From Hypomesus transpacificus (taxonomy: Eukaryota > Chordata > Actinopteri > Osmeriformes > Osmeridae), in the NCBI RefSeq assembly GCF_021917145.1, contig NC_061080.1, positions 1,283,497 to 1,347,496 on the forward strand: DNA of 64,000 nucleotides, written 5' to 3'. Position numbers and translations under genes: made by a program. Positions 3,158-63,284 of the stretch are shown piece after piece; the stretch's first letter is position 1, and every line of letters begins with the position of its first letter. A model generated the notes under the pieces. It saw only the letters and a list, made by a program, of their open reading frames with translations. It did not search any database and was not told the origin of the DNA.

Positions 3158-6100
3158 ATACACAGAACAATCTGCAGATGGGCTCAAACACGGAGAGGCT
3201 CTAAAGTCATCACCTGTCTCCTACATTGCATTCATCAGACAATAACAGTCTGACCATGAATCAGATTATCAGAGTCCACGTGCATTTAAAAGCATCTAAA
3301 TACCTATATCGATTCTGATGCCCAACACGTCTTCAGCTGCAATATTTAAAGGAGCACCATGGAATTCGTCAAGCATATTTCAGGAAATATCGATTACTCA
3401 GACAGCTAGTGTCCAACAAGAAACCCCCTCATGGAAAGGAACAAATATCAAATAAACAGTGCCGTCTAGCGGTATAGAATATAGTTTACTTGCAGTAAAC
3501 AGTGTGTCTGTGTGTATGCGTGAATGGAGACAATTCAGTATTTTAGTCGTAGCTATTTAGCCCATGTGTGTGTGGTTCATGTGTTTAAGTAATGTCATCT
3601 CTTGTCCACAGAGATCAACAGAGGTCAGACCAGAGTCACCATGACGACTTGACTTCTATATTCACAGTGAGTTTTGTGATTTTAAAGTACAAACAAGACT
3701 CAATCATTTAAATCTGATTATACACAGTAGAACAGAGTTCCTGGTTCGTCTGATATCTTCCCTCTCTGTTTCAGGTGCTTGAGGAGACTGTCATCAGGTT
3801 TGTGAAGGAAGAGCTGAAGAGGATGAAGAGGATTCTGAGTTCAGATTTCCCAGAAGGCTTAGAGAGTCAGAGGGAGGACCAGGAAGTGGTGGACCCTGAA
3901 TATCAGAAGCAGGAGAGCAGTGCCAGAGAGGGAGCTCTGAAGATCACACTGCACGTCCTGAGGAACATGAACCAGAAGGAGCTGGCTGACACTCTGGAGA
4001 AAAGTAAGAGACTCCATATTTAGTCTCAGTTCACCGACTGATGGTTTATGATAAAGATGCAGGTTAAGAGAATCAGAGTAATTTTCAACTGGCAAAGTGC
4101 AGTGATGGAAAATGCTTATGTATAAGCCATCAATGTCTGCCATATTTAAAATAGGAAAAACTATTCTGAACTGTTAAGTAACTTTCTCCTGCCAACTAAA
4201 GCCCTGTTAAGAATAACATCTGTGTTTGGTCATTCAGGAGAGCTTTCTCATCATAAACTCTCACGTAAACTCAAATCTAAACTGAATAAGAAGTATCAGA
4301 CTGTCTTTGAGGGCATAGCTCAACAAGGAAACCCAACTCTTCTCAATAACATCTACACAGATCTCTACATCACAGAGGGTGTGAGAGCAGATGTCAATAA
4401 TGAACATGAGGTGAGACAGATTGAGAAAGCATCCAGGAAATCAGCAAGACCAGAGACAGCCATCACATGCAACAACATCTTTAAACCTTCAGCTGGAAGA
4501 GACATCAGAATTGTTCTTACAACAGGAGTTGCTGGCATCGGAAAAACTGTCTCTGTGCAGAAGTTCATCACGGACTGGGCTGAGGGACTAGCCAATCAGG
4601 AAATCCAGTTCATCTTTCCTCTGCCGTTTCGAGAGCTGAATCTGCTGGATGGAAAAAAGTTCAGTCTGATGGAACTTGTCCATCACTTCTTCTCAGAAAC
4701 CAGACAATCAGGAATCTCCAACTATGACAAGAACAACATTCTGTTTGTCTTTGACGGTCTGGATGAGTGTCGACTGCCCTTAGCCTTCAAAAAGAACAAG
4801 AGCTGGTGTGATGTCACAGAGTCCACCTCAGTGGATGTGCTGCTGACCAACCTGATCAAAGGAAACCTGCTTCCCTCTGCTCTCATCTGGATCACCACTC
4901 GACCGGCAGCAGCCAATCAGATCCCTTCGGAGTGTGTTGACCTGGTGACAGAGGTTCAATGACCCACAGAAGGATGAGTACATCATGAAGAGATGCAGTG
5001 ATGAGATCCTGGCCAGGAGAATCATCTCACACATCAAGGCATCAAGGACTCTCTACATCATGTGCCACATTCCAGTCTTCTCCTTAATGTGTGTGACAGT
5101 CCTGGAGCACATGCTGAGAACAGAGAAGAAAGAGAAGATGCCCAAGACCCTGACTGAGATGTACACAGCCTTCCTGGTGTTACAGACCAAACAGAAGAAG
5201 GTGAAGTATCATGGGAAAACTGAAACAGATCCACACTGGGATGAAGAGAGCATTAAGAGCATTCTGTCACTGGGAAAACTGGCTTTCCACCAGCTCGAGA
5301 AAGGCAACCTGATTTTCTATGAGAAAGACCTGATAGAGTGTGGCATTGATGTCCGTGATGCCTCAGTGTACTCAGGAGTGTTCACACAGATCTTCAGACA
5401 GGATGGTAAAGTCTTCCAGGAGAAGGTGTTCTGCTTTGTCCATCTGAGCATTCAGGAGTTTCTGGCTGCTGTATTTGTGTTACTCTCATTCATCAACAAC
5501 AATGAGAATCTGATGTCTGAGACTCCATCAGCTTCCAGCTCCAACAAACTGTTGGTTTTGTTCAGAGAGAAACCAGAAGTCCGATTCTACAAGAGTGCTG
5601 TGGACAAGGGCTTGCAGAGTAAGAATGGACAACTGGACCTTTTCCTACGCTTCCTCCTGGGCCTCTCAATGGAGTCCAACCAGACTGACTTACGAGGCCT
5701 ACTGACTCAGAACAGTAACAAGACAGAGAGCCATGAGGAAACAGTCAAGTACATCAAGGAGAAGATCAGAAAGAATCCCTCTCCAGAGAGATGCATGAAT
5801 CTCTTCCACTGTCTGAATGAACTGAATGACCATTCTCTGGTGGAGGAGATCCAACAGTACCTGAGCTCAGGAAGTCTCTCCAGTGAGAAGAAGCTCTCAT
5901 CTACTCAGTGGTCAGCTCTGGTCTTTGTGTTGCTGACTTCAGAAGAGAAGATGGACGTGTTTGACCTGAAGAAATACTCCAGATCAGAGGAAGGTCTTCT
6001 GAGGCTTCTGCCAGTGGTCAAAGACTCCAAAACTGCTCTGTAAGTATATATATATATATTTTTTTTACAATAACATGACTTCACACATGTACATTGTGAT

Positions 6101-12100: not shown

Positions 12101-12738
12101 CTCTCCCCAACCCTCCCTTCTCCACTCCACTTAGTTAGTGAGAGAGAAATTCTAATGTGAATGATGATGATCAGTAATATATTGTGTCTTGGTGTCCCCC
12201 ATCAGATGCCTGTGAGCTCACACTGGACCCAAACACAGCACAGAGAGAACTCTCTCTGTCTGAGAAAAACAGAAAGGTGACAAGGAGGATAGAGGAGCAG
12301 CCGTATCCTGATCACCCAGAGAGAATTGACCACTGTCCACAGGTGCTGTGTAGAGAGGGTCTGTCTGGGCGCTGTTATTGGGAGGCAGAGTGGAGTGGTG
12401 CTGTTTTTATAGCAGTGACATATAAAGGAATCAGCAGGAGAGGATGGAGTACTGTCAGTATGCTTGGATTCAATAACAAGTCCTGGAGTCTGAGCTGTGA
12501 TGATAACAGGTACTCTGCCTGGCACACTGAGAGCACTGCCATACATGTCCCCCCCTCCAGCTCCCACAGAGTAGGAGTGTATCTAGACTGGCCGGCCGGC
12601 ACGCTGTCCTTCTACAAAGTCTCGTCTGACACACTGACCCACCATCACACATTCCACAACACATTCACTGAGCCCCTCTATCCTGGGTTCGGCGTTTATA
12701 ATCCTGACTCCTCAGTGTCCCTGTGTCAGGTAGAATAG
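741..12738 (+). CDS. NLRC3-like NOD-like receptor (FISNA-NACHT-LRR-PRY/SPRY), frameshifted
   Basis: Cytosolic pattern-recognition receptor of the large fish-specific NLR family. Supported coding exons are 741-784, 908-1024, 1673-1786, 2328-2441, 3612-3666, 3775-4003, 4238-6039, 6180-6347, 7763-7927, 8900-9073, 11824-11870 and 12206-12738. All have GT-AG borders and matching phases. The first exon gives [14 protein letters not shown]; exons 2-4 are near-identical repeats; 3775-4003 encodes a charged helical segment. Exon 4238-6039 encodes FISNA then NACHT, with Walker A GVAGIGKT (about 4525-4548) and Walker [12 protein letters not shown] (about 4738-4770). Three LRR exons follow ([16 protein letters not shown] type), then a short linker exon and PRY-SPRY ([31 protein letters not shown]). 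The NACHT exon is broken: frame 1 stops at 4960-4962, while the homologous continuation (FNDPQKDEY) is in frame 2. Total coding length is 3562 nt, divisible by three only if 8 nt are restored. It may be a pseudogene or carry an assembly error. Confidence 0.82.
908..2800 (+). repeat. Tandem duplication of the NLR N-terminal repeat exon (three copies plus a remnant)
   Basis: Exons 908-1024, 1673-1786 and 2328-2441 encode nearly the same 38-residue module ([29 protein letters not shown]). Their flanking introns are also repeated, including the downstream blocks with the string ctaaaacctaaattagccc near 1310, 1965 and 2730. Copies 2 and 3 are 655 bp apart; copies 1 and 2 are 765 bp apart. A fourth, decayed copy lies near 2771-2808 (ctcagtgatggagga... 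followed by a gtatgt donor). Each exon begins with one nucleotide and ends with two of a codon, so copies can be added or skipped without changing frame. Confidence 0.85.
3096..3154. repeat. (AC)n microsatellite
   Basis: An uninterrupted CA dinucleotide run of about 59 bp in the intron before the 3612 exon of the NLR gene. Confidence 0.95.
4951..4962 (+). other. Frameshift in the NACHT exon of the NLR gene
   Basis: The sequence gaggttcaatga reads E-V-Q-stop in the upstream frame. From 4955 the +1 frame reads F-N-D-P-Q-K-D-E-Y and then stays open to the splice donor at 6040. The family consensus I recall here is VTEVRGFNDPQK. Measured against it, 8 nucleotides between GAG and TTC are missing. 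This is a local lesion in an otherwise intact exon. Confidence 0.85.
8097..8235. repeat. Dispersed DNA-transposon-like repeat fragment
   Basis: The segment starts cagtggttcctaaccctg and continues with text I recognise as a widespread vertebrate/teleost interspersed repeat (cagggccccctgtcctgcatg, ctccaacacacctgattcaa). The CAGTGGTTC start resembles a hAT-type terminal repeat, but I do not see the other end clearly. It lies in the intron between the second and third LRR exons. Confidence 0.5.
9497..9565. repeat. AT-rich palindromic repeat (TTAATCGATTAATC type)
   Basis: Contains nested palindromes such as taataatcgattaatc and gattaatcgattaatcag. This motif is common in interspersed repeats of fish genomes and probably marks the end of a non-autonomous transposon. 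It lies in the 2.75-kb intron between the third LRR exon and the linker exon of the NLR gene. Confidence 0.45.
9664..9985. repeat. Diverged two-copy tandem repeat of about 163 bp
   Basis: The string acaattttgaaaaagtt near 9664 recurs as acaattttgaaaaaagtt near 9827. Further matched pairs follow in the same order, for example ggttgtggaagta and ggctgtggaagta, and agaataatctggtg and aaaatactctggtg. No protein is recognisable in it. The rest of this intron (10040-11820) shows nothing I can name. Confidence 0.6.
11950..12135 (+). repeat. Polypyrimidine (C/T) tract before the PRY-SPRY exon
   Basis: About 185 bp are almost purely C and T on the plus strand, ending about 70 bp before the acceptor at 12205. 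The length far exceeds a normal polypyrimidine tract. It is low-complexity intronic sequence, although it yields spurious Ser/Leu/Pro-rich open frames. Confidence 0.8.
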
Positions 12739-13199: not shown

Positions 13200-13455
13200 C
13201 ACTCTATACCCACCCCCTCCTCTATACCCAACCCCTCCTCTCCCCCTGACCTCCTCTATACCCAACCCCTCCTCTCCCCCTGACCTCCTATCTACCCAAC
13301 CCCTCCTCTCCCCCTTACCTCCTCTCTACCCACCACCTCCTCTCCCCCTTACCTCCTCTCTACCCACCACCTCCTCTCCCCCTGACCTCCTATCTACCCA
13401 ACCGCTCCTCTCCCCCTTACCTCCTCTCTACCCACCACCTCCTCTCCCCCATATA
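13200..13455. repeat. 34-bp CT-rich minisatellite, about seven copies
   Basis: Units of the form (c)acctcctctccccct(t/g)acc followed by tcctctctacccac repeat with a 34-bp period (for example caccac at 13331 and 13365). Variant positions include ttacc/tgacc and tctctac/tatctac. It sits between the NLR poly(A) signal and the retroposon remnant. Confidence 0.85.
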
Positions 13456-14250: not shown

Positions 14251-15675
14251 GAATGTTCCTTTTTGTGCTGGTGCCTTGTTTGTATCCACGAGCACATTTC
14301 CAGACACATTTTCTTGAGGTAAGCAAATAAATGGGGTGCAAGTTTACCCATTTCGGATTGGTTTCAAACTTCGCAATAATCTAGGAACATTGTTCTATGA
14401 AAAAGCTAGTAGTATGAGCCAGGTTCGAGAATCCGACTAAATTTATTGGGGAAAATAGTTTTGGATATTTTGAATGGAGTAATGAGAATACAAACGACTG
14501 TAGGAGTCGGTCTGCAAATGGGAAATGCAATACCCCCTACATCCACCGGGGCCATTGCCTCAAGCCGAGGGGGTGGGGCTCTGTTTTTGATCCACCGCAG
14601 TGTCAACTTTTCCTTATACAAAAATACATAAAATACACATTTACTTTCATAGCATTACAAAGTAAAGGTATCCTAAAATGATTTTAAGGTCTAAATCTCG
14701 TCAGTAGTATGTGGATAAGATGAAGTACAGTTTATTAGAGTATGTGACCTGTTTAGGCTGAAATCTAAGCACTGTCATGTAATGTGAACTACAATGCATT
14801 GGATATTATCAACGAGTAACACACAATTGCTACACCAAAACCCATTTCTATGCCTCGTTGACCCCGACGACACGAGGGGTCTACAGAATAAAATCGGAGT
14901 AAATCGGAGAGGGGTTTGCTGACAGTGCCACCTGGATGACAACGAGGACAGCGCGAGGGTTAAGCATTATGCATCCGTCGTTTGCAAGCCTAGGTTGATG
15001 TAGCTCACCGGGTGTCTAAAAGCCAGATGCCTAGAGTTAATATTACAAACTTTGTGGAAATGCCGTAATATGGAAACTTGATTAAAGTTATGATTTGGAT
15101 GACCAAGGATTATCTTGAAACTCGAGGAAACTTGGGACTGAAGCAGCGAAAATAACTAGTGCTCTTTGCATGATGAAGTTGTAGCTATAGCTGACAGATT
15201 GTACCCTACTTTTTGTTGGCAACAGTGCGGAAAAGCTTTTCTCGTGAAACTTTATTTGTTACACCTAAAACTAACAGGATAATTCTTTAAAAAAAACTTT
15301 TCGGATTCGGTCACATTGACAACCAAGCGTGGAAAATAATTTACATATTGCGACGTAAACCTGTAACAGAGGGTTTCTTCCACAGCCGTGTGCAATTTCA
15401 AGACAAACAAAATGTTGTTTTTGAGAAGTCAGCCTTGACAATGGGAAAGAAATCAGTGGCCATGGCACTCCAAATCCCAAAACGTCCAGGACTACTTCAG
15501 AAGAGTTCAACAACAAGGATTTGAGAGGAGTATTCCACGAGCAAGCAACAACTCGAACATGCTACCATGTCACGTTGAAACATATTGGAACATGGAAGTT
15601 TCTGGTTTTAAAAAGCTGCAATAACAAAAAGTCAACAATAAAAGAAAACAACAAAAATCTGTTTGTCTACTCAAG
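14251..15675 (+). other. Intergenic stretch and unresolved 5' end of ATAD5
   Basis: From 14251 to about 15435 I see no gene. From 15439 to 15675 the ATAD5 reading frame (frame 1) is open except for one stop. It encodes NVQDYFRRV, resembling the NILDYFRK motif near the N-terminus of human ATAD5, then a Lys/Gln-rich stretch, and meets the stop TAA at 15622-15624. It then runs without a break into the coding frame of the next entry. Either the first coding exon lies elsewhere and this is chance, or the N-terminus is broken by a stop. I could not identify a convincing ATG. Confidence 0.4.
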
Positions 15676-18600
15676 GATAAACCCTCAGAGCTCACTGGAA
15701 TTATAGTCATTTCAGAGTCAAGCAACTCCAGTGACACTGTTCAGGTTAACGGCACCACAGTTGAGTCAAACTTGGACAGAACCAGAACCGAAGCACACAC
15801 AATACCAAAACATGGGGCAGAGGAGAAGATGTTTGTATCAATTTTTACTAAGAAAGAGCACTTGGAGAGTGAAGGGACTCAAACTGGTTTTGACAAACAG
15901 CATCAACAAACTAAATCTAATGTGGTAGGCCTGTCTATCAAGCAGGGTTTCGAATTAGAAGTCACAGAGTCGAATTCAGCTTATCAGACAATGTCAACTA
16001 CCCACTCTGTTTGGAGAGAGGAATTTTCTGGACCGGTCCAAAATAGATGCCTTGTAGAAATACAAGAGTCAAACCCTGTGTTCCCAGTCAAAAGAATCTT
16101 TGCCGCACTACAGAAGAAATACAAGGAACACAGTAAAGTGTTAAAATATCCTGGTAAGATATAAGTTTACTGTCTTAATTCAGTACTGTTTTGGTGTGTT
16201 GTTATCGTGTTTTAGAATACAGTTGCGGTAACCTTCGTTTCCATCAGCAGCAGCTTTGAGCAACCCTCCATCCATGCTAAACCCAGCGCTAGCCAAACGG
16301 AAACTTCATCAAAACGAGAGAGGAGACTCGGAGAAGCTTCCCAAGCGCTGGAGGTATGACTTGGAGGAGATGGCGAAGAAGGAGGCCCTTACCCTGGTCA
16401 GTGGTTCCCCTTCCGAATCTGCCAGTAGGAGCTCCGCGGTGTTTCCAGCAAGGGGCCAGCCCGGGAAGTGCAGGCTGAGCCGGACCCACAGGCTGAGGCA
16501 GCTGGAGGAGAGCCTTTGCCTGGGTCCGAGTGATGAACCAAAGCCTGACCAGGCACATCAACCAGACTCTGATGGGGCAACTCTAAGCTGCCACAGGAGA
16601 GGTAAGGGTGTCTCAAGGTTGATCTTTTGTAAGTTTTTTTTTTTTGTCTTTCAATGACTTAGCATTGTGATCATTATTTACCTGTCCTATAGAAGATAAA
16701 CACATTGAAGATATGCTTTGGACGGACAAGTACTGCCCTCAGAACTCAAGCGAGGTCATCGGCAACTCCTCATCGGTGAAGAAGCTCCACAGGTGATTTT
16801 GAAAATGAATTCTCACCCTGTCACAACGAACGTAGAGTCCCACCTGTTTCTCATGAACTGTCACTTTAAGCAGTTGGCTAAGGAGGTGGAAACTGCGAGC
16901 GGATTGTGAAGAGAGGAGAAGGGACCTGGAGAAGAGACAGGAAGACAACAGCAATGGTAACCTCCAAAATACTTTTACACCAACGCTTATCCTCTACAGT
17001 ATACTACAGTTACTCAGAAGTGTTTGCCGCGTTTACAAGATAAAACTTGGTAAAACCCGACGGAAGTTCTTGTGCCAGCGATCGAAGGTTCCAACATTGC
17101 TCAAGAAAAAAAACGATAAGAATAGAAAACAATATGGTCATAAAACTAAAGTTTACAGGGGGAGTAAGTCAAGAATACAGTGAATGGTATTTGAAGGTGT
17201 CTGTGGTGTGTCCCATGCAGACTCATGGGACTGCGGAGACTTCCAGGGAGATGCCTGTGTGGAAGAGGAGGGAGAAGAGCTGTCCACCACCATGCTCATC
17301 ACAGGTCCCTCCGGGGTGGGGAAGACGGCCTCTGTGTACGCCTGTGCCCTGGAGCTGGGCTTTAAGGTGGGCTTCAGGGAAGGGTCCACCCTGCTAATAC
17401 CTTCCTGTGACGGTCCACTCACACAGCACCGACTCCTGCCGATTCTGTCACATACTTCTGTGCATCCACAGTGCATGGTTGAGTAGTCGTGAGCGTGTAT
17501 TCGGTACTGTGGTGTTGGTAAGCTGTCTTTTGTGAGAGCCTTCCTTTGCTTAGTTTTCATGGATCTATATTTACATTTAGTCATTTAGCAGACGCTCTTA
17601 TCCAGAGCGACTTAGAGTAAGTACAGGGACATTCCCCGAATGGTGAGGTGCCTCGCCCAAGGACATAGTCATACGCACGGCCAAGAATCGAACCTGCAAC
17701 CTTCTGATAACTAGCCCGATTCCCTAACCTCTCAGCCACCTGACTCCCTATGTGGTCAGGTGTTCGAGGTGAACGCTTCCTGCCAGCGCAACGGTCGCCA
17801 TGTGCTGACTCAGCTGAAAGAGGCCACCCAGTCCCACCTGGTGGACATTCAGGGACAAGCCCTCCTCAAACCTACTTACCTCAGGAACAGCAGCTCCACC
17901 AAACCTGACACCTTGTCTGGTAATTAACCCTACCCCTGAAATCATCTTCAGTAATACAAAATATATTTTGTACAAATTATTTTTACTAACCTAGAACGTT
18001 CTTCTTGATAGGCAATGACATATTGATTCAAACCCTTCTTTACAGGGACAGAAACCTCCTCAAGAAGGCTTGTCTCATCATCCAGGAAGTTTCCAAAACG
18101 GAACTCTTGCAGTGCAAGGCATAAAGGAAAGGGCAAGCAAGCTGCCATCACACTGGCCAACTTCTTCAAGATGAAGAGCAAAGCAGAGGGTATCGCTGTA
18201 GACGGTCTGTCATCTAAAAACACAGATATCCAGACTTCCTCTAACTACCCGTCACCAGACAATGAACAACCAGCAACCGGGGGACAGCATAAAATGACGA
18301 CCACATCCCTTATTCTGTTTGAAGAGGTAAATCAAAAGCTGGAGGCATGACTCAGTCAAACAATGTCTGTGTGTCCTATCTCCTACGGTAAATATTGTGC
18401 TGTATTCACAGGTCGATATCATATTTGATGACGACGTGGGATTCCTCTCGGCGATCAAGACTTTTATGTCAACAACCAAAAGACCTGTGATCCTGACGAC
18501 AGACGGTAAGGACCTCTGACAAATAAGCCTAGCATGAATGTTGATTTGAGGAATCATCCATTGGTCCATAAATACATACGTCATACTAAAAGTCAACTGT

Positions 18601-21600
18601 CACCAGATCCTTCATTCCGTGCAATATTCAACGCCAACTTCGAAGCGGTTCTTTTCAAAACGCCCTCAACGGTAAGTCTCACGGGCAACTGGTAAACGTA
18701 GTACGACTTGATCTGTTTCCGCCCTGCATATATTCATATCTCGTGTACTCCCAAGGTGAACGCGTGCAGCTACCTGCGGCTATTGTGTCTGGCCGAGAAC
18801 ATCAGGACGGAGCCTGGTGACATCACTTCCCTTCTTGAGGTGACCCGTGGTGACATCAGACGTAGCGTGTTGCAGGTGCAGTTGTGGGGCAGCAGTAGAG
18901 AGAAGCGGAGCCCTCAGACGGAAGCTCCGGAAACTTCCAAGGTTCCTGTAACGGTGGACCCCAAGTCTAAAGACCGCAGGCCTCTATGCCGTCTTCCTCA
19001 TTGTGAGCTGAGATGTACTCCAAGCATGTTGGGTCTTCTTAATGCTGATCTCGGACAAGAGCTGGCGAACTTTCAGAAATCCTTGATGGATACGGAAGTT
19101 ATAAAGCTCATGGAGGTGCTTAAAGAGAGTTGGAGGAGAGGCGTTCCTCTGCTGTACTCAAACCTGGAGCTCCTCTCACGCTCACCAGCTCGAACCCAAC
19201 CTGCTTCACTCTCCATCCCAGAGGAAGTGGCTCAAACTGGGCCGCAGAATCATCCCAGACCGGTCGACATCCACCCCCAGACTCCAGAGCTAAGCTGCAC
19301 CGCCCCCACCAGGACTTCTAGACTGAGTAGAAGGAAACGCGCCCGGGTTTCCGACCCCGGGTCCATTCACAGCGTTTCACCACAAAGAACCTCGCTGTCG
19401 TTGAACATTCATTCAAGGACCTCTGGCACTAATGACAAGCCTACGACTTTAAACCAGGCACGGAGGCTTGAATCCCAGAGTTTAGATGCCCTAGCTGACT
19501 TCATGGACCTTATGTCCCACCTGGATTCTACCCTTCCCACCCCAGACCTTCACACAGCCGGCCCATGTAGATCAGGAGAGTTCATCTGGACAGGGGCCCG
19601 GGTGAAAGACGGACTGCTGGATGAGATGCGAGAGGAGGAGCATGGGAGTTGTAGTTTGGAGAGGGTGTTTGAGATCCAGGCTGCTCTTGAAGCGTTGGCC
19701 TTTCACACGTGCCACACTGTGGTGTCAGGGGTTATGGGGACAGGGCAGGATTTGGGGGAGGGGTGTAAGGATGGGGTCACAGAGGAAGTCACTTCTCCAG
19801 TCGCTTCACACAGACAGATTTTCAGCTTCACTCACACTTCAATTTTGGAACCAAGGTATGTCCTCCTGGCAGATGTTGGGTGACTTAACATGGAAATTAC
19901 TTATTGAATCTTTATGACTAATTGTCATCCACAAGGCAGTTAATTCTCTACTTACTCAATTCCGATTTGATGCACACCAACAAAAAAAATGTTTTTCCCC
20001 AGTGTGAGCCAAAGAAGATACGACATCAACAAGACGGTCTTCACAAGCAGAGCCTTTTCTACCATGGGCAACAAGCAGGCTATTGCAGTGGACTACCTGC
20101 CTATCCTGCGCACCATCTGTCAGTCACAAAGATCCCAGGAGCAGGCCGGTGGCTGGTAAGATTCACCCTTTCACTCTGGTTACATGCCAGCTCTTCACCC
20201 TTTCACTCTGGTTACATGCCAGCTCTTCACCCTTTCACTCTGGTTACATGCCAGCTCTTCACCCTTTCACTCTGGTTACATGCCAGCTCTTCACCCTTTC
20301 ACTCTGGTTACATGCCAGCTCTTCACCCTTTCACTCTGGTTACATGCCAGCTCTTCACCCTTTCACTCTGGTTACATGCCAGCTCTTCACCCTTTCACTC
20401 TGGTTACATGCCAGCTCTTCACCCTTTCACTCTGGTTACATGCCAGCTCTTCACCCTTTCACTCTGGTTACATGCCAGCTCTTCACCCTTTCACTCTGGT
20501 TACATGCCAGCTCTTCACCCTTTCACTCTGGTTACATGCCAGCTCTTCACCCTTTCACTCTGGTTACATGCCAGCTCTTCACCCTTTCACTCTGGTTACA
20601 TGCCAGCTCTTCACCCTTTCACTCTGGTTACATGCCAGCTCTTCACCCTTTCACTCTGGTTACATGCCAGCTCTTCACCCTTTCACTCTGGTTACATGCC
20701 AGCTCTTCACCCTTTCACTCTGGTTACATGCCAGCTCTTCACCCTTTCACTCTGGTTACATGCCAGCTCTTCACCCTTTCACTCTGGTTACATGCCAGCT
20801 CTTCACCCTTTCACTCTGGTTACATGCCAGCTCTTCACCCTTTCACTCTGGTTACATGCCAGCTCTTCACCCTTTCACTCTGGTTACATGCCAGCTCTTC
20901 ACCCTTTCACTCTGGTTACATGCCAGCTCTTCACCCTTTCACTCTGGTTACATGCCAGCTCTTCACCCTTTCACTCTGGTTACATGCCAGCTCTTCACCC
21001 TTTCACTCTGGTTACATGCCAGCTCTTCACCCTTTCACTCTGGTTACATGCCAGCTCTTCACCCTTTCACTCTGGTTACATGCCAGCTCTTCACCCTTTC
21101 ACTCTGGTTACATGCCAGCTCTTCACCCTTTCACTCTGGTTACATGCCAGCTCTTCACCCTTTCACTCTGGTTACATGCCAGCTCTTCACCCTTTCACTC
21201 TGGTTACATGCCAGCTCTTCACCCTTTCACTCTGGTTACATGCCAGCTCTTCACCCTTTCACTCTGGTTACATGCCAGCTCTTCACCCTTTCACTCTGGT
21301 TACATGCCAGCTCTTCACCCTTTCACTCTGGTTACATGCCAGCTCTTCACCCTTTCACTCTGGTTACATGCCAGCTCTTCACCCTTTCACTCTGGTTACA
21401 TGCCAGCTCTTCACCCTTTCACTCTGGTTACATGCCAGCTCTTCACCCTTTCACTCTGGTTACATGCCAGCTCTTCACCCTTTCACTCTGGTTACATGCC
21501 AGCTCTTCACCCTTTCACTCTGGTTACATGCCAGCTCTTCACCCTTTCACTCTGGTTACATGCCAGCTCTTCACCCTTTCACTCTGGTTACATGCCAGCT

Positions 21601-22485
21601 CTTCACCCTTTCACTCTGGTTACATGCCAGCTCTTCACCCTTTCACTCTGGTTACATGCCAGCTCTTCACCCTTTCACTCTGGTTACATGCCAGCTCTTC
21701 ACCCTTTCACTCTGGTTACATGCCAGCTCTTCACCCTTTCACTCTGGTTACATGCCAGCTCTTCACCCTTTCACTCTGGTTACATGCCAGCTCTTCACCC
21801 TTTCACTCTGGTTACATGCCAGCTCTTCACCCTTTCACTCTGGTTACATGCCAGCTCTTCACCCTTTCACTCTGGTTACATGCCAGCTCTTCACCCTTTC
21901 ACTCTGGTTACATGCCAGCTCTTCACCCTTTCACTCTGGTTACATGCCAGCTCTTCACCCTTTCACTCTGGTTACATGCCAGCTCTTCACCCTTTCACTC
22001 TGGTTACATGCCAGCTCTTCACCCTTTCACTCTGGTTACATGCCAGCTCTTCACCCTTTCACTCTGGTTACATGCCAGCTCTTCACCCTTTCACTCTGGT
22101 TACATGCCAGCTCTTCACCCTTTCACTCTGGTTACATGCCAGCTCTTCACCCTTTCACTCTGGTTACATGCCAGCTCTTCACCCTTTCACTCTGGTTACA
22201 TGCCAGCTCTTCACCCTTTCACTCTGGTTACATGCCAGCTCTTCACCCTTTCACTCTGGTTACATGCCAGCTCTTCACCCTTTCACTCTGGTTACATGCC
22301 AGCTCTTCACCCTTTCACTCTGGTTACATGCCAGCTCTTCATGTCAGCTGGCATGTAACCACTGCACAAGATAACATTGCTCATGACTATATATTTGTCC
22401 TAGGTTTCAGCATTACTTCAGCCGTATTCAACTTGGACTCTCAAAATCAACCATCCAGCTCCTTGCCGAAGACTTTCCTTATTGA
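15676..22485 (+). CDS. atad5: ATAD5 (Elg1-type AAA+ PCNA unloader), short form
   Basis: Large subunit of the RFC-like clamp unloader that removes PCNA from chromatin after replication; nuclear. Exons: 15676-16153 (5' edge inferred), 16254-16601, 16693-16792, 16871-16956, 17221-17366, 17760-17919, 18046-18326, 18412-18505, 18607-18671, 18756-19855, 20003-20155 and 22404-22485. All phases agree and give about 1030 residues. Diagnostic blocks are DMLWTDKYCPQ, Walker A GPSGVGKTAS, FEVNASCQRNGR and QLKEATQSH. Walker B is SLILFEEVDIIFDDD, followed by TFMSTTKRPVILTTD and a C-terminus ending LLAEDFPY. Human ATAD5 has over 1100 residues before the DMLWTEKY block; here only about 290 are supported. This fits a short paralogue (zebrafish atad5b type, from memory) or missing N-terminal exons. 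A SINE abuts the exon at 17760 and a minisatellite fills the last intron. AATAAA lies at 22586-22591. Confidence 0.88.
17570..17749 (-). mobile_element. tRNA-headed SINE, reverse orientation, in an ATAD5 intron
   Basis: Read on the minus strand it starts gggagtcaggtggctgagag and has a Pol III B-box-like segment (ggttcgattc). It ends in the tail gctctggataagagcgtctg followed by ctaaatgactaaatgtaaa. The same head and tail occur at 51154-51357 and 55250-55435. The head resembles a tRNA-Leu/Ser-type gene. Its edge lies about 10 bp before the splice acceptor of the ATAD5 exon at 17760. Confidence 0.8.
20162..22337. repeat. 32-bp minisatellite, 68 identical copies, filling the last ATAD5 intron
   Basis: The unit begins ttcaccctttcactctgg, continues ttacatgccagctc, and repeats with an exact 32-bp period. 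The first unit starts at 20162 and the last at 22306, that is 67 steps, so 68 copies. I see no variant copy. The array begins 6 nt after the splice donor at 20156 and occupies 2176 of the intron's 2248 nt. Because 32 is not a multiple of three and no unit contains a stop on this strand, all three forward frames stay open through it. Confidence 0.97.
22321..22361. repeat. Perfect 16-bp inverted repeat closing the minisatellite
   Basis: The last unit's tggttacatgccagct (22321-22336) is followed after a 9-nt spacer by its exact reverse complement agctggcatgtaacca (22346-22361). The right arm lies just outside the array, so it is an inverted fragment of the repeat unit. In RNA this would form a stable 16-bp stem with a 9-nt loop about 40 nt upstream of the final acceptor. 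Confidence 0.93.
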
Positions 22486-22585
22486 CCTGTGCATCTTTAT
22501 TGCGTGGTAATACAACGGTGTTGATGAGTGTTGATTCTATGAAATAAGTAGCGCTGAAAAATACAATACAACCCATGAACACGTG

Positions 22586-22923: not shown

Positions 22924-24227
22924 TTAACTCGGTTCATTGAGCAGCTCATAAAACGCCACTGCCTGCAGCAGCGCGTCGCTCATCTCCTCTCGTTTGTTCC
23001 CCATCTGGAAGGCGTCCCTGTACTTCACCAGCAGGTGCGTGGGGAACTTCACCCTCAGAGAATTCTGGACCGACGACTCGCTCATCATCTGCTGCACCAA
23101 CTGGGAACCGCTGGTGCGCGACTCGCGCAGCATCAGGCCAAAATGGCGGCCCACCGCGACCCGCATCATGTTGAGGACCTTTGGAGGGGTGGCGAGGTCC
23201 TGGTGGGGGGCTTTGGGCTCCAGGAGGGCGAACAACATGGCTTCCACGGTCCGCATGTGGGCCATGATGGGGAACAGGTTGGTGTTCTGCATAGTGATGG
23301 ACGACTTCTCCACCACATAGAAGTCAGCAGGGGGGAGTTGGGATACCACTGCGGAGATCTACGGGCGAAAGCAACTGTTATACATGTGCTGTTATATTAA
23401 AATACGTATTGTAAAATACGCAGTTGAATAAACTTACATCATCCAAGTAGGAGGAAGCGTAGTAGGTCCCAACCATGAAGTTATGGCATGCTTCATGCCG
23501 CCAATCCAGCACACTCATATCTCTGTCCAGATGTGCCCAGGCTATTTTATTCATCCCACAAACGATAGACACAATTGAATTGGCTTTCTAGGGAGAAATC
23601 AAATTAATATTTTAACTGCAGTTTTAAGTTGTAAATGGGGCCAATGGAACGGTGCAGGCTTAAGCTTCTTACCACTAGCCACGACTTGTCAACCTCTGGT
23701 CGGATGAATTTGGCTAGCTGAATTTTCACTTTTTTCTTCTGAGATATTTGTGGGTTTAGTATCGAGTCGAATACGATCAGAGCACTTTTGTGTTTCAGGA
23801 GAGGTACATTTATGACGCTTTCTAAATTTTGAAAAGGGCCATTTCTAGTCCTGTATTCAACAATATTATGACACTTGCGGCCACGTAGGAGCTTGACACC
23901 CGCCAGTTCTGTTTCGGTTGCACTGTTAAGCAACTGCAGAATGACTGCTCGCTGCTCCGGCGAGTAGCAGGCGTCCAGGGACTTGTCATCCTCGCACGGA
24001 ATTGAAGATGAGAGGGTGGCATTCAGTGTTTCAAAGCCCGCAACGGGAATGCGGCTTCTCCAACAACACGTACATTGCAGATATCGGAGTTCTAACTCTG
24101 GAAGTGAGCCTTGTGGACGCAAGAATAAGCCATGTTTCCCTGCAGAATAACACAAATATTCACGTGAGGTTGGAATGAAACTAGCTAGATAGCTACTAAC
24201 TTTGCAAATTTGCAGTCTGCAAAGCAT
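22924..24227 (-). CDS. tefm: TEFM, mitochondrial transcription elongation factor
   Basis: Binds mitochondrial RNA polymerase POLRMT and increases its processivity; acts in the matrix. Three minus-strand exons: 24227-23682, 23587-23438 and 23358-22924. All junctions are in phase 0, giving 376 residues against about 360 in human. Residues 1-40 (MLCRLQICKVSSYLASF onward) are Arg/Ser/Leu-rich with few acids, fitting a mitochondrial presequence. The helix-hairpin-helix region carries LLRGRKCHNIVEYR and GPFQNLESVINVPLLK. The RNase H-like C-terminal domain carries IVSIVCGMNKIAWAHLDRD, DWRHE, and SRTSGSQLVQQ. The ending LLQAVAFYELLNEPS matches the family's C-terminus. It is convergent with ATAD5 and head-to-head with ADAP2. 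A separate upstream coding exon is not excluded, but the start at 24227 gives a complete protein. Confidence 0.88.

Positions 24228-44439: not shown

Positions 44440-63284
<18,845 letters not shown>

Follow-up and report, generated by a model that had tools for sequence, protein, structure and literature searches.

How does a tandem repeat come to fill almost the whole of an intron with perfectly identical copies, starting six bases into it, and does it matter to the gene that carries it? The question is raised by a 64,000-nt stretch of the genome of the smelt Hypomesus transpacificus (NCBI RefSeq assembly GCF_021917145.1, contig NC_061080.1, positions 1,283,497 to 1,347,496 of the forward strand; hereafter the window, to which all positions refer), where the last intron of atad5b holds 68 identical head-to-tail copies of the 32-bp unit TTCACCCTTTCACTCTGGTTACATGCCAGCTC at 20162–22337 (+), as counted exactly in register. 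Tandem Repeats Finder called the same array (period 32, 68.1 copies, 100% matches, 0 indels), and no variant was present among the 68 units, edge units included; copy number and homogeneity are as written in one assembly. With 32-bp units repeated 68 times at 100% identity, the array is a minisatellite (head-to-tail tandem units of ∼10 to 100 bp). Its units contain neither a CpG nor a stop codon in any forward frame. The maximal stretch with period 32 is slightly longer (20162–22341; 2180 nt, or 68.125 units): the word TTCA opens the first unit (20162–20165, +) and returns behind the last one as a 4-nt partial 69th copy (22338–22341, +), and because it is common to both edges the periodic stretch equals 68 × 32 + 4. 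By simple arithmetic, a blunt duplication in random bases would show at least four such shared edge bases ∼1.6% of the time. An earlier reading of these letters without database searches (the sequence-only reading) had described 68 perfect 32-bp repeats 6 nt past a splice donor, making up 2176 of the 2248 nt of the last intron and leaving ∼72 nt without them; the in-register count agreed with Tandem Repeats Finder, and both intron sizes were reproduced.

To delimit the intron, the 860-aa atad5b protein annotated in Osmerus mordax was aligned, with splicing, to window positions 16200–22500. This alignment gave ten introns, nine of 81–393 nt and the last of 2248 nt (20156–22403); of 852 whole codons aligned, 776 were identical. 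Without the ten introns, an open frame of 862 codons plus stop runs from the ATG at 16274 to 22485. The donor GTAAGA of the last intron occupies 20156–20161 (+, from sequence and spliced alignment), so that the array begins at intron position +7. Subtracting all 68 whole units would leave an intron of 72 nt, retaining one would leave 104 nt, and the array has lengthened the intron some twenty- to thirty-fold. On its left lies the penultimate exon (20003–20155, +; O. mordax spliced alignment and sequence), and on its right the true acceptor AG (22402–22403, +; acceptor scoring and spliced alignment) and the last coding exon (22404–22485, +; C-terminus ...LAEDFPY and stop, from the human ATAD5 C-terminus match and O. 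mordax). Among the matches listed (best 120 of 502), the top protein was O. mordax ATPase family AAA domain-containing protein 5b (91% identity across the full query), with salmonid proteins next at 53–55% identity, and on these matches the gene is identified as smelt atad5b, a teleost paralogue. The sequence-only reading had named it ATAD5. The last two exons joined match the human ATAD5 C-terminus (E = 4 × 10−13), but the gene is the teleost paralogue and not the single mammalian ATAD5. A literature search (titles and abstract starts) found no intronic array in ATAD5 or atad5b; the PMC4263700 passages about zebrafish atad5b deal with gene targeting.

Immediately outside the array, the unit's TGGTTACATGCCAGCT recurs inverted and without a mismatch over 16 nt (22346–22361, +); a 9-nt loop lies between this copy and the corresponding arm within unit 68 (22321–22336, +), and the second TTCA sits inside this loop. 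The resulting terminal hairpin folded far more stably than expected by chance, both as DNA (z = −7.6) and as RNA (z = −4.7), with none of 200 shuffles as good in either case. Neither the inverted half-unit nor the TTCA microhomology figured in the sequence-only reading. The exact pattern of a hairpin with 15-nt arms matched the assembly once, at this locus only. Among 70 arrays from the window and 19 other fragments of the assembly, that of atad5b alone had an inverted flank match of at least 12 nt, and in a control with swapped flanks 0.35% of array/flank pairs reached 16 nt. That arrays and inverted flanks are generally linked was considered and found unsupported, with 0 of 69 other arrays reaching 12 nt and a best match of 11 nt among the 68 arrays of a 25-fragment survey (described below). 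An Rfam search of the window at gathering thresholds returned nothing at the array or the hairpin, only two UnaL2 tails of long interspersed nuclear elements (LINEs).

Searches of the whole assembly (437,198,280 bases in 376 contigs; match counts are lower bounds) placed the unit at this locus alone. A search for the unit elsewhere in the genome, as the sequence-only reading had proposed, found 68 matches to its 25-base core with up to three mismatches, all within the array and none reversed (control: 0). No second locus was found across the assembly for a 96-base array query, and an 83-base flank of the array matched only here. The array was further compared with those in 25 other assembly fragments (hand-picked sites, 245,150 non-N bases, window excluded), counting non-redundant arrays with units of at least 10 bp and at least three copies. 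The 68 minisatellite arrays found made up 5.0% of bases and only one exceeded 1 kb; 28 had at least five copies, of which none was at 100% identity and two reached 97%. Other long arrays in the survey retained unit variants (90% over 869 bp, 89% over 1054 bp). Minisatellites are thus an ordinary kind of sequence here, and it is in length and perfection that the atad5b array is extreme, its homogeneity lying far beyond chance relative to the sampled arrays. The genome of a congener, the smelt Hypomesus nipponensis, is described as minisatellite-rich in PMC12083275, whose genome-features section (section 6) gives no tandem-repeat figure. Closest to perfect among the sampled long arrays was a 40-bp array of 18 copies at 99% (bases 1–720 of its fragment), clipped by the fragment edge. 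Within the window itself there is a second long minisatellite at 58215–59140 (unit of about 41–44 bp, ∼21 copies, 88%, intermixed with GT runs) and a 34-bp one at 13216–13450 (6.9 copies, 92%; a 102-bp period was also called). Window positions 20100–20400 had no match in a phage collection, and five peptide words encoded by the array were absent from all 140 ATAD5-like proteins compared (a set of 20 plus the best 120 of 502).

We consider it on balance probable that the array is a young minisatellite, likely a variable number tandem repeat (VNTR), that grew within an atad5b intron of ∼100 nt by hairpin-associated slippage between TTCA words and is most likely without function, as intron content that is spliced out. 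The terminal hairpin and the TTCA at both edges together suggest such slippage. Judging from the present edges, the intron with a single copy (∼104 nt) would have held the foldback TGGTTACATGCCAGCT–9 nt–AGCTGGCATGTAACCA together with a pair of TTCA words at a spacing of 32 bp, the first preceding the left arm and the second within the loop. By slipping from the second word back onto the first, a stalled polymerase would have duplicated 32 bp with the left arm and without the right one. Further slippage or unequal exchange may then have raised the copy number to 68, presumably too recently for any unit to have mutated. Slippage between repeats of 5–10 bp is held to start minisatellites (Haber and Louis, via PMC6947457). 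Where a template has a hairpin and short direct repeats, replicative polymerases slip on it (PMC4134008); there, an archaeal PCNA clamp lowered slippage, and the Escherichia coli clamp, per the discussion, raised it. Like minisatellites attributed to slippage in PMC6947457, the atad5b array consists of head-to-tail units of tens of base pairs with a short repeat at both edges; its edge repeat, however, is 4 bp rather than 5–10 bp and has one copy in the loop of a perfect hairpin. Recent expansion, one of three options named in the sequence-only reading, is supported by the absence both of variant units, up to the very edges, and of any other match in the assembly. Using a clock of 3.51 × 10−9 per synonymous site per year (PMC12083275), zero changes in 2180 bp correspond to an age of at most ∼0.39 million years (95%, assuming this clock and no homogenization); the Hypomesus and Osmerus species treated in that paper are placed there as having last shared an ancestor ∼24 million years ago. 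If gene conversion has kept the units alike, the array could be older than this bound.

Several points weigh against an origin by slippage at the hairpin. The edge repeat falls below the 5–10 bp of the Haber and Louis model. Slippage over inverted triplications in E. coli is reported to eliminate them precisely (PMC13334657), and backward slippage yielding a duplication would be our own extension of these observations. The order of events, hairpin before array, is also drawn from the present sequence, and the inverted arm could instead be a copy made once the array was in place. Finally, with no such inverted flank at any of the 69 other arrays, the proposed route would be a one-off.

This reverse order, array before arm, is the substance of a possible, if less probable, alternative, in which a template switch at the edge of an existing array produced a backward copy of 16 nt of a unit, making the right arm the younger element; this would be a variant of the slippage origin and is compatible with a young array. 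Replication errors are known to yield small inverted copies with short junctions (PMC13334657), and the atad5b locus shares with the small inverted triplications of that paper the adjacency of direct and inverted copies and the capacity to form hairpins. In contrast, the events of that paper have a direct–inverted–direct structure (DUP/IN/DUP) averaging 148/160/148 bp, whereas the locus lacks this order and has an inverted part of 16 nt next to 68 direct copies; a direct 12-nt unit word following the inverted arm was absent nearby, the one found lying 24 kb away at 46020. It is unlikely that the array is an assembly artefact, in which consensus polishing or gap filling turned a real but shorter or variant array into perfect copies. 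The lack of any perfect array among the 28 other sampled arrays with at least five copies would fit such an artefact, but the array edges join single-copy gene sequence cleanly, and the variants kept in the other long arrays (90% and 89%) indicate that the assembly does not homogenize arrays in general. An origin as part of a transposable element (a miniature inverted-repeat transposable element, a Helitron or another type), with the right arm as its inverted end, appears very improbable: the hairpin close to one end and the inverted repeat adjoining the array are reminiscent of such elements, but this locus was the only match (lower bounds) for the 25-base core with up to three mismatches, for the exact hairpin pattern and for the 83-base flank, and the failure to find dispersed copies disfavors a transposon.

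A different class of explanation holds that the array acts on splicing. The sequence-only reading had proposed that its units present 68 decoy acceptors between the donor and the true acceptor, and part of this was borne out. Each unit has one AG, the first 35 nt from the donor and the rest at 32-nt intervals; it stands in a CAG, and the unit also has an imperfect pyrimidine tract and, upstream of the AG, two branch-like TTCAC motifs. However, under a 3′ splice site matrix, the unit AG scored 1.86 against 6.48 for the true acceptor, below nine of the ten aligner-placed atad5b acceptors; the tenth, at 16695 (1.56), may be misplaced, because an AG 3 nt upstream (16692) scores 8.26. In the predicted fold of the whole intron, folds of such long RNAs being uncertain, the mean probability of being unpaired was 0.007 for the decoy A and 0.917 for the A of the true acceptor. 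The unit's only AG pairs within a predicted mini-hairpin CTGGT-TACAT-GCCAG (first of 68 at 20176–20190, +, from RNA folds), whose stability was itself within chance (RNA: z = −1.2, 25 of 200 shuffles as good; DNA: z = −1.6, 13 of 200; other DNA strand: z = −0.25, 84 of 200). On these predictions the decoy-acceptor idea appears weak. A cryptic acceptor-like AG in the right arm of the terminal hairpin (22346–22347) scored above the units (3.91) and was likewise predicted to be paired (unpaired probability: A, 0.11; G, 0.0004). Looping-out of the array, in which the right arm would pair with unit 1 and bring donor and acceptor together, was predicted to be possible but minor, the pairing probability of that arm being 0.11 for unit 1, against 0.50 for unit 68 and 0.05 for unit 67. 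Splicing to any of the 68 unit acceptors would keep the remaining array in an open frame, which would end at one of three stops (23, 23 and 22 cases) and give a tail of 13–773 residues; retention of the last intron would meet an immediate stop (TGG-TAA, stop at 20157–20159). The array has probably been tolerated because the true branch region and acceptor (22362–22403) are untouched and the unit AGs are predicted to be weak and masked by stems.

The closest known case by anatomy, with no link of descent claimed, is the 25-bp VNTR in intron 18 of human ABCA7, which starts at the exon 18 donor GT and spans about 12 to 427 units (PMC5954066); in trout, intronic repeats near exon borders are reported for irak3 (PMC6763605). 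Both arrays are minisatellites directly behind a donor that take up a large share of their intron, in a C-rich region, with short units (25 and 32 bp) in tens to hundreds of copies. ABCA7 units, however, include the GT of the donor, are slightly variable, differ from person to person and go with exon skipping, whereas the atad5b donor lies outside the units, which are identical in one assembly, contain no GTAAGA and have a single GT each, preceding TACA. We regard as improbable a functional donor-abutting VNTR somewhat like that of ABCA7, whose copy number would alter atad5b splicing or expression and, by way of unit acceptors, slowed splicing or intron retention, yield a protein lacking its last 26 residues or bearing the repeat-encoded tail, presumably with no downstream junction to trigger decay. 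For such a role speak the correlations at ABCA7, where greater VNTR length goes with skipping of exon 19 and with lower expression (PMC5954066), together with the open frames, the branch-like motifs and the AG at 22347 set out above. The low-scoring, predictedly paired unit AGs and the missing donor copies count against it. Two of three splice changes at ABCA7 did not follow array length, only skipping of the next exon tracking it (PMC5954066), and in atad5b the next exon is the last. The O. mordax annotation has a normal junction here, which speaks to the protein and not to intron content.

Elsewhere in atad5b, an in-frame TAA at 15622–15624 lies within an N-terminal coding stretch, on either side of which two salmonid proteins align in one frame (E = 6 × 10−9 and 2 × 10−10), and the O. 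mordax annotation begins downstream of it, at 16274. The N-terminal part of smelt atad5b, and with it a possible PCNA-binding motif, may have been lost. The UnaL2-type LINE 3′ ends (Rfam RF00436) lie at 17575–17628 (−), within the atad5b intron 17367–17759, and at 51288–51341 (+). A neighboring convergent gene is represented by a TEFM exon at 22927–23358 (−; E = 4.9 × 10−33 to PDB chain 8u8u_A, transcription elongation factor, mitochondrial), and pieces of fish NLR genes occur at 4150–6040 and 12178–12735 (FISNA, NACHT, NOD2 winged helix and NLRC4 HD2, then PRY-SPRY).

Human ATAD5 clears PCNA from DNA, and the human locus modifies repeat expansion; the bearing of this on the atad5b array is suggestive and unproven. 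It would be a most improbable case if the array were self-referring, its length setting the amount of full-length Atad5b through splicing of the last intron and Atad5b, provided that it acts as the human protein does, in turn setting the stability of hairpin-prone arrays, its own included; the intron would then be a heritable, fast-mutating dial on repeat stability. Should array lengths vary in smelt, they would provide a natural series on the splicing effects of donor-adjoining arrays, a question raised by ABCA7 in Alzheimer's disease. The atad5b array itself is young, perfect and probably neutral, placed behind a splice donor with an unusually legible origin, and because both of its edges can be read it offers a good chance to see the birth of a minisatellite. 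Sister smelts with the hairpin and a single unit would demonstrate a route from hairpin plus microhomology to minisatellite in a vertebrate, at a node that can be dated.

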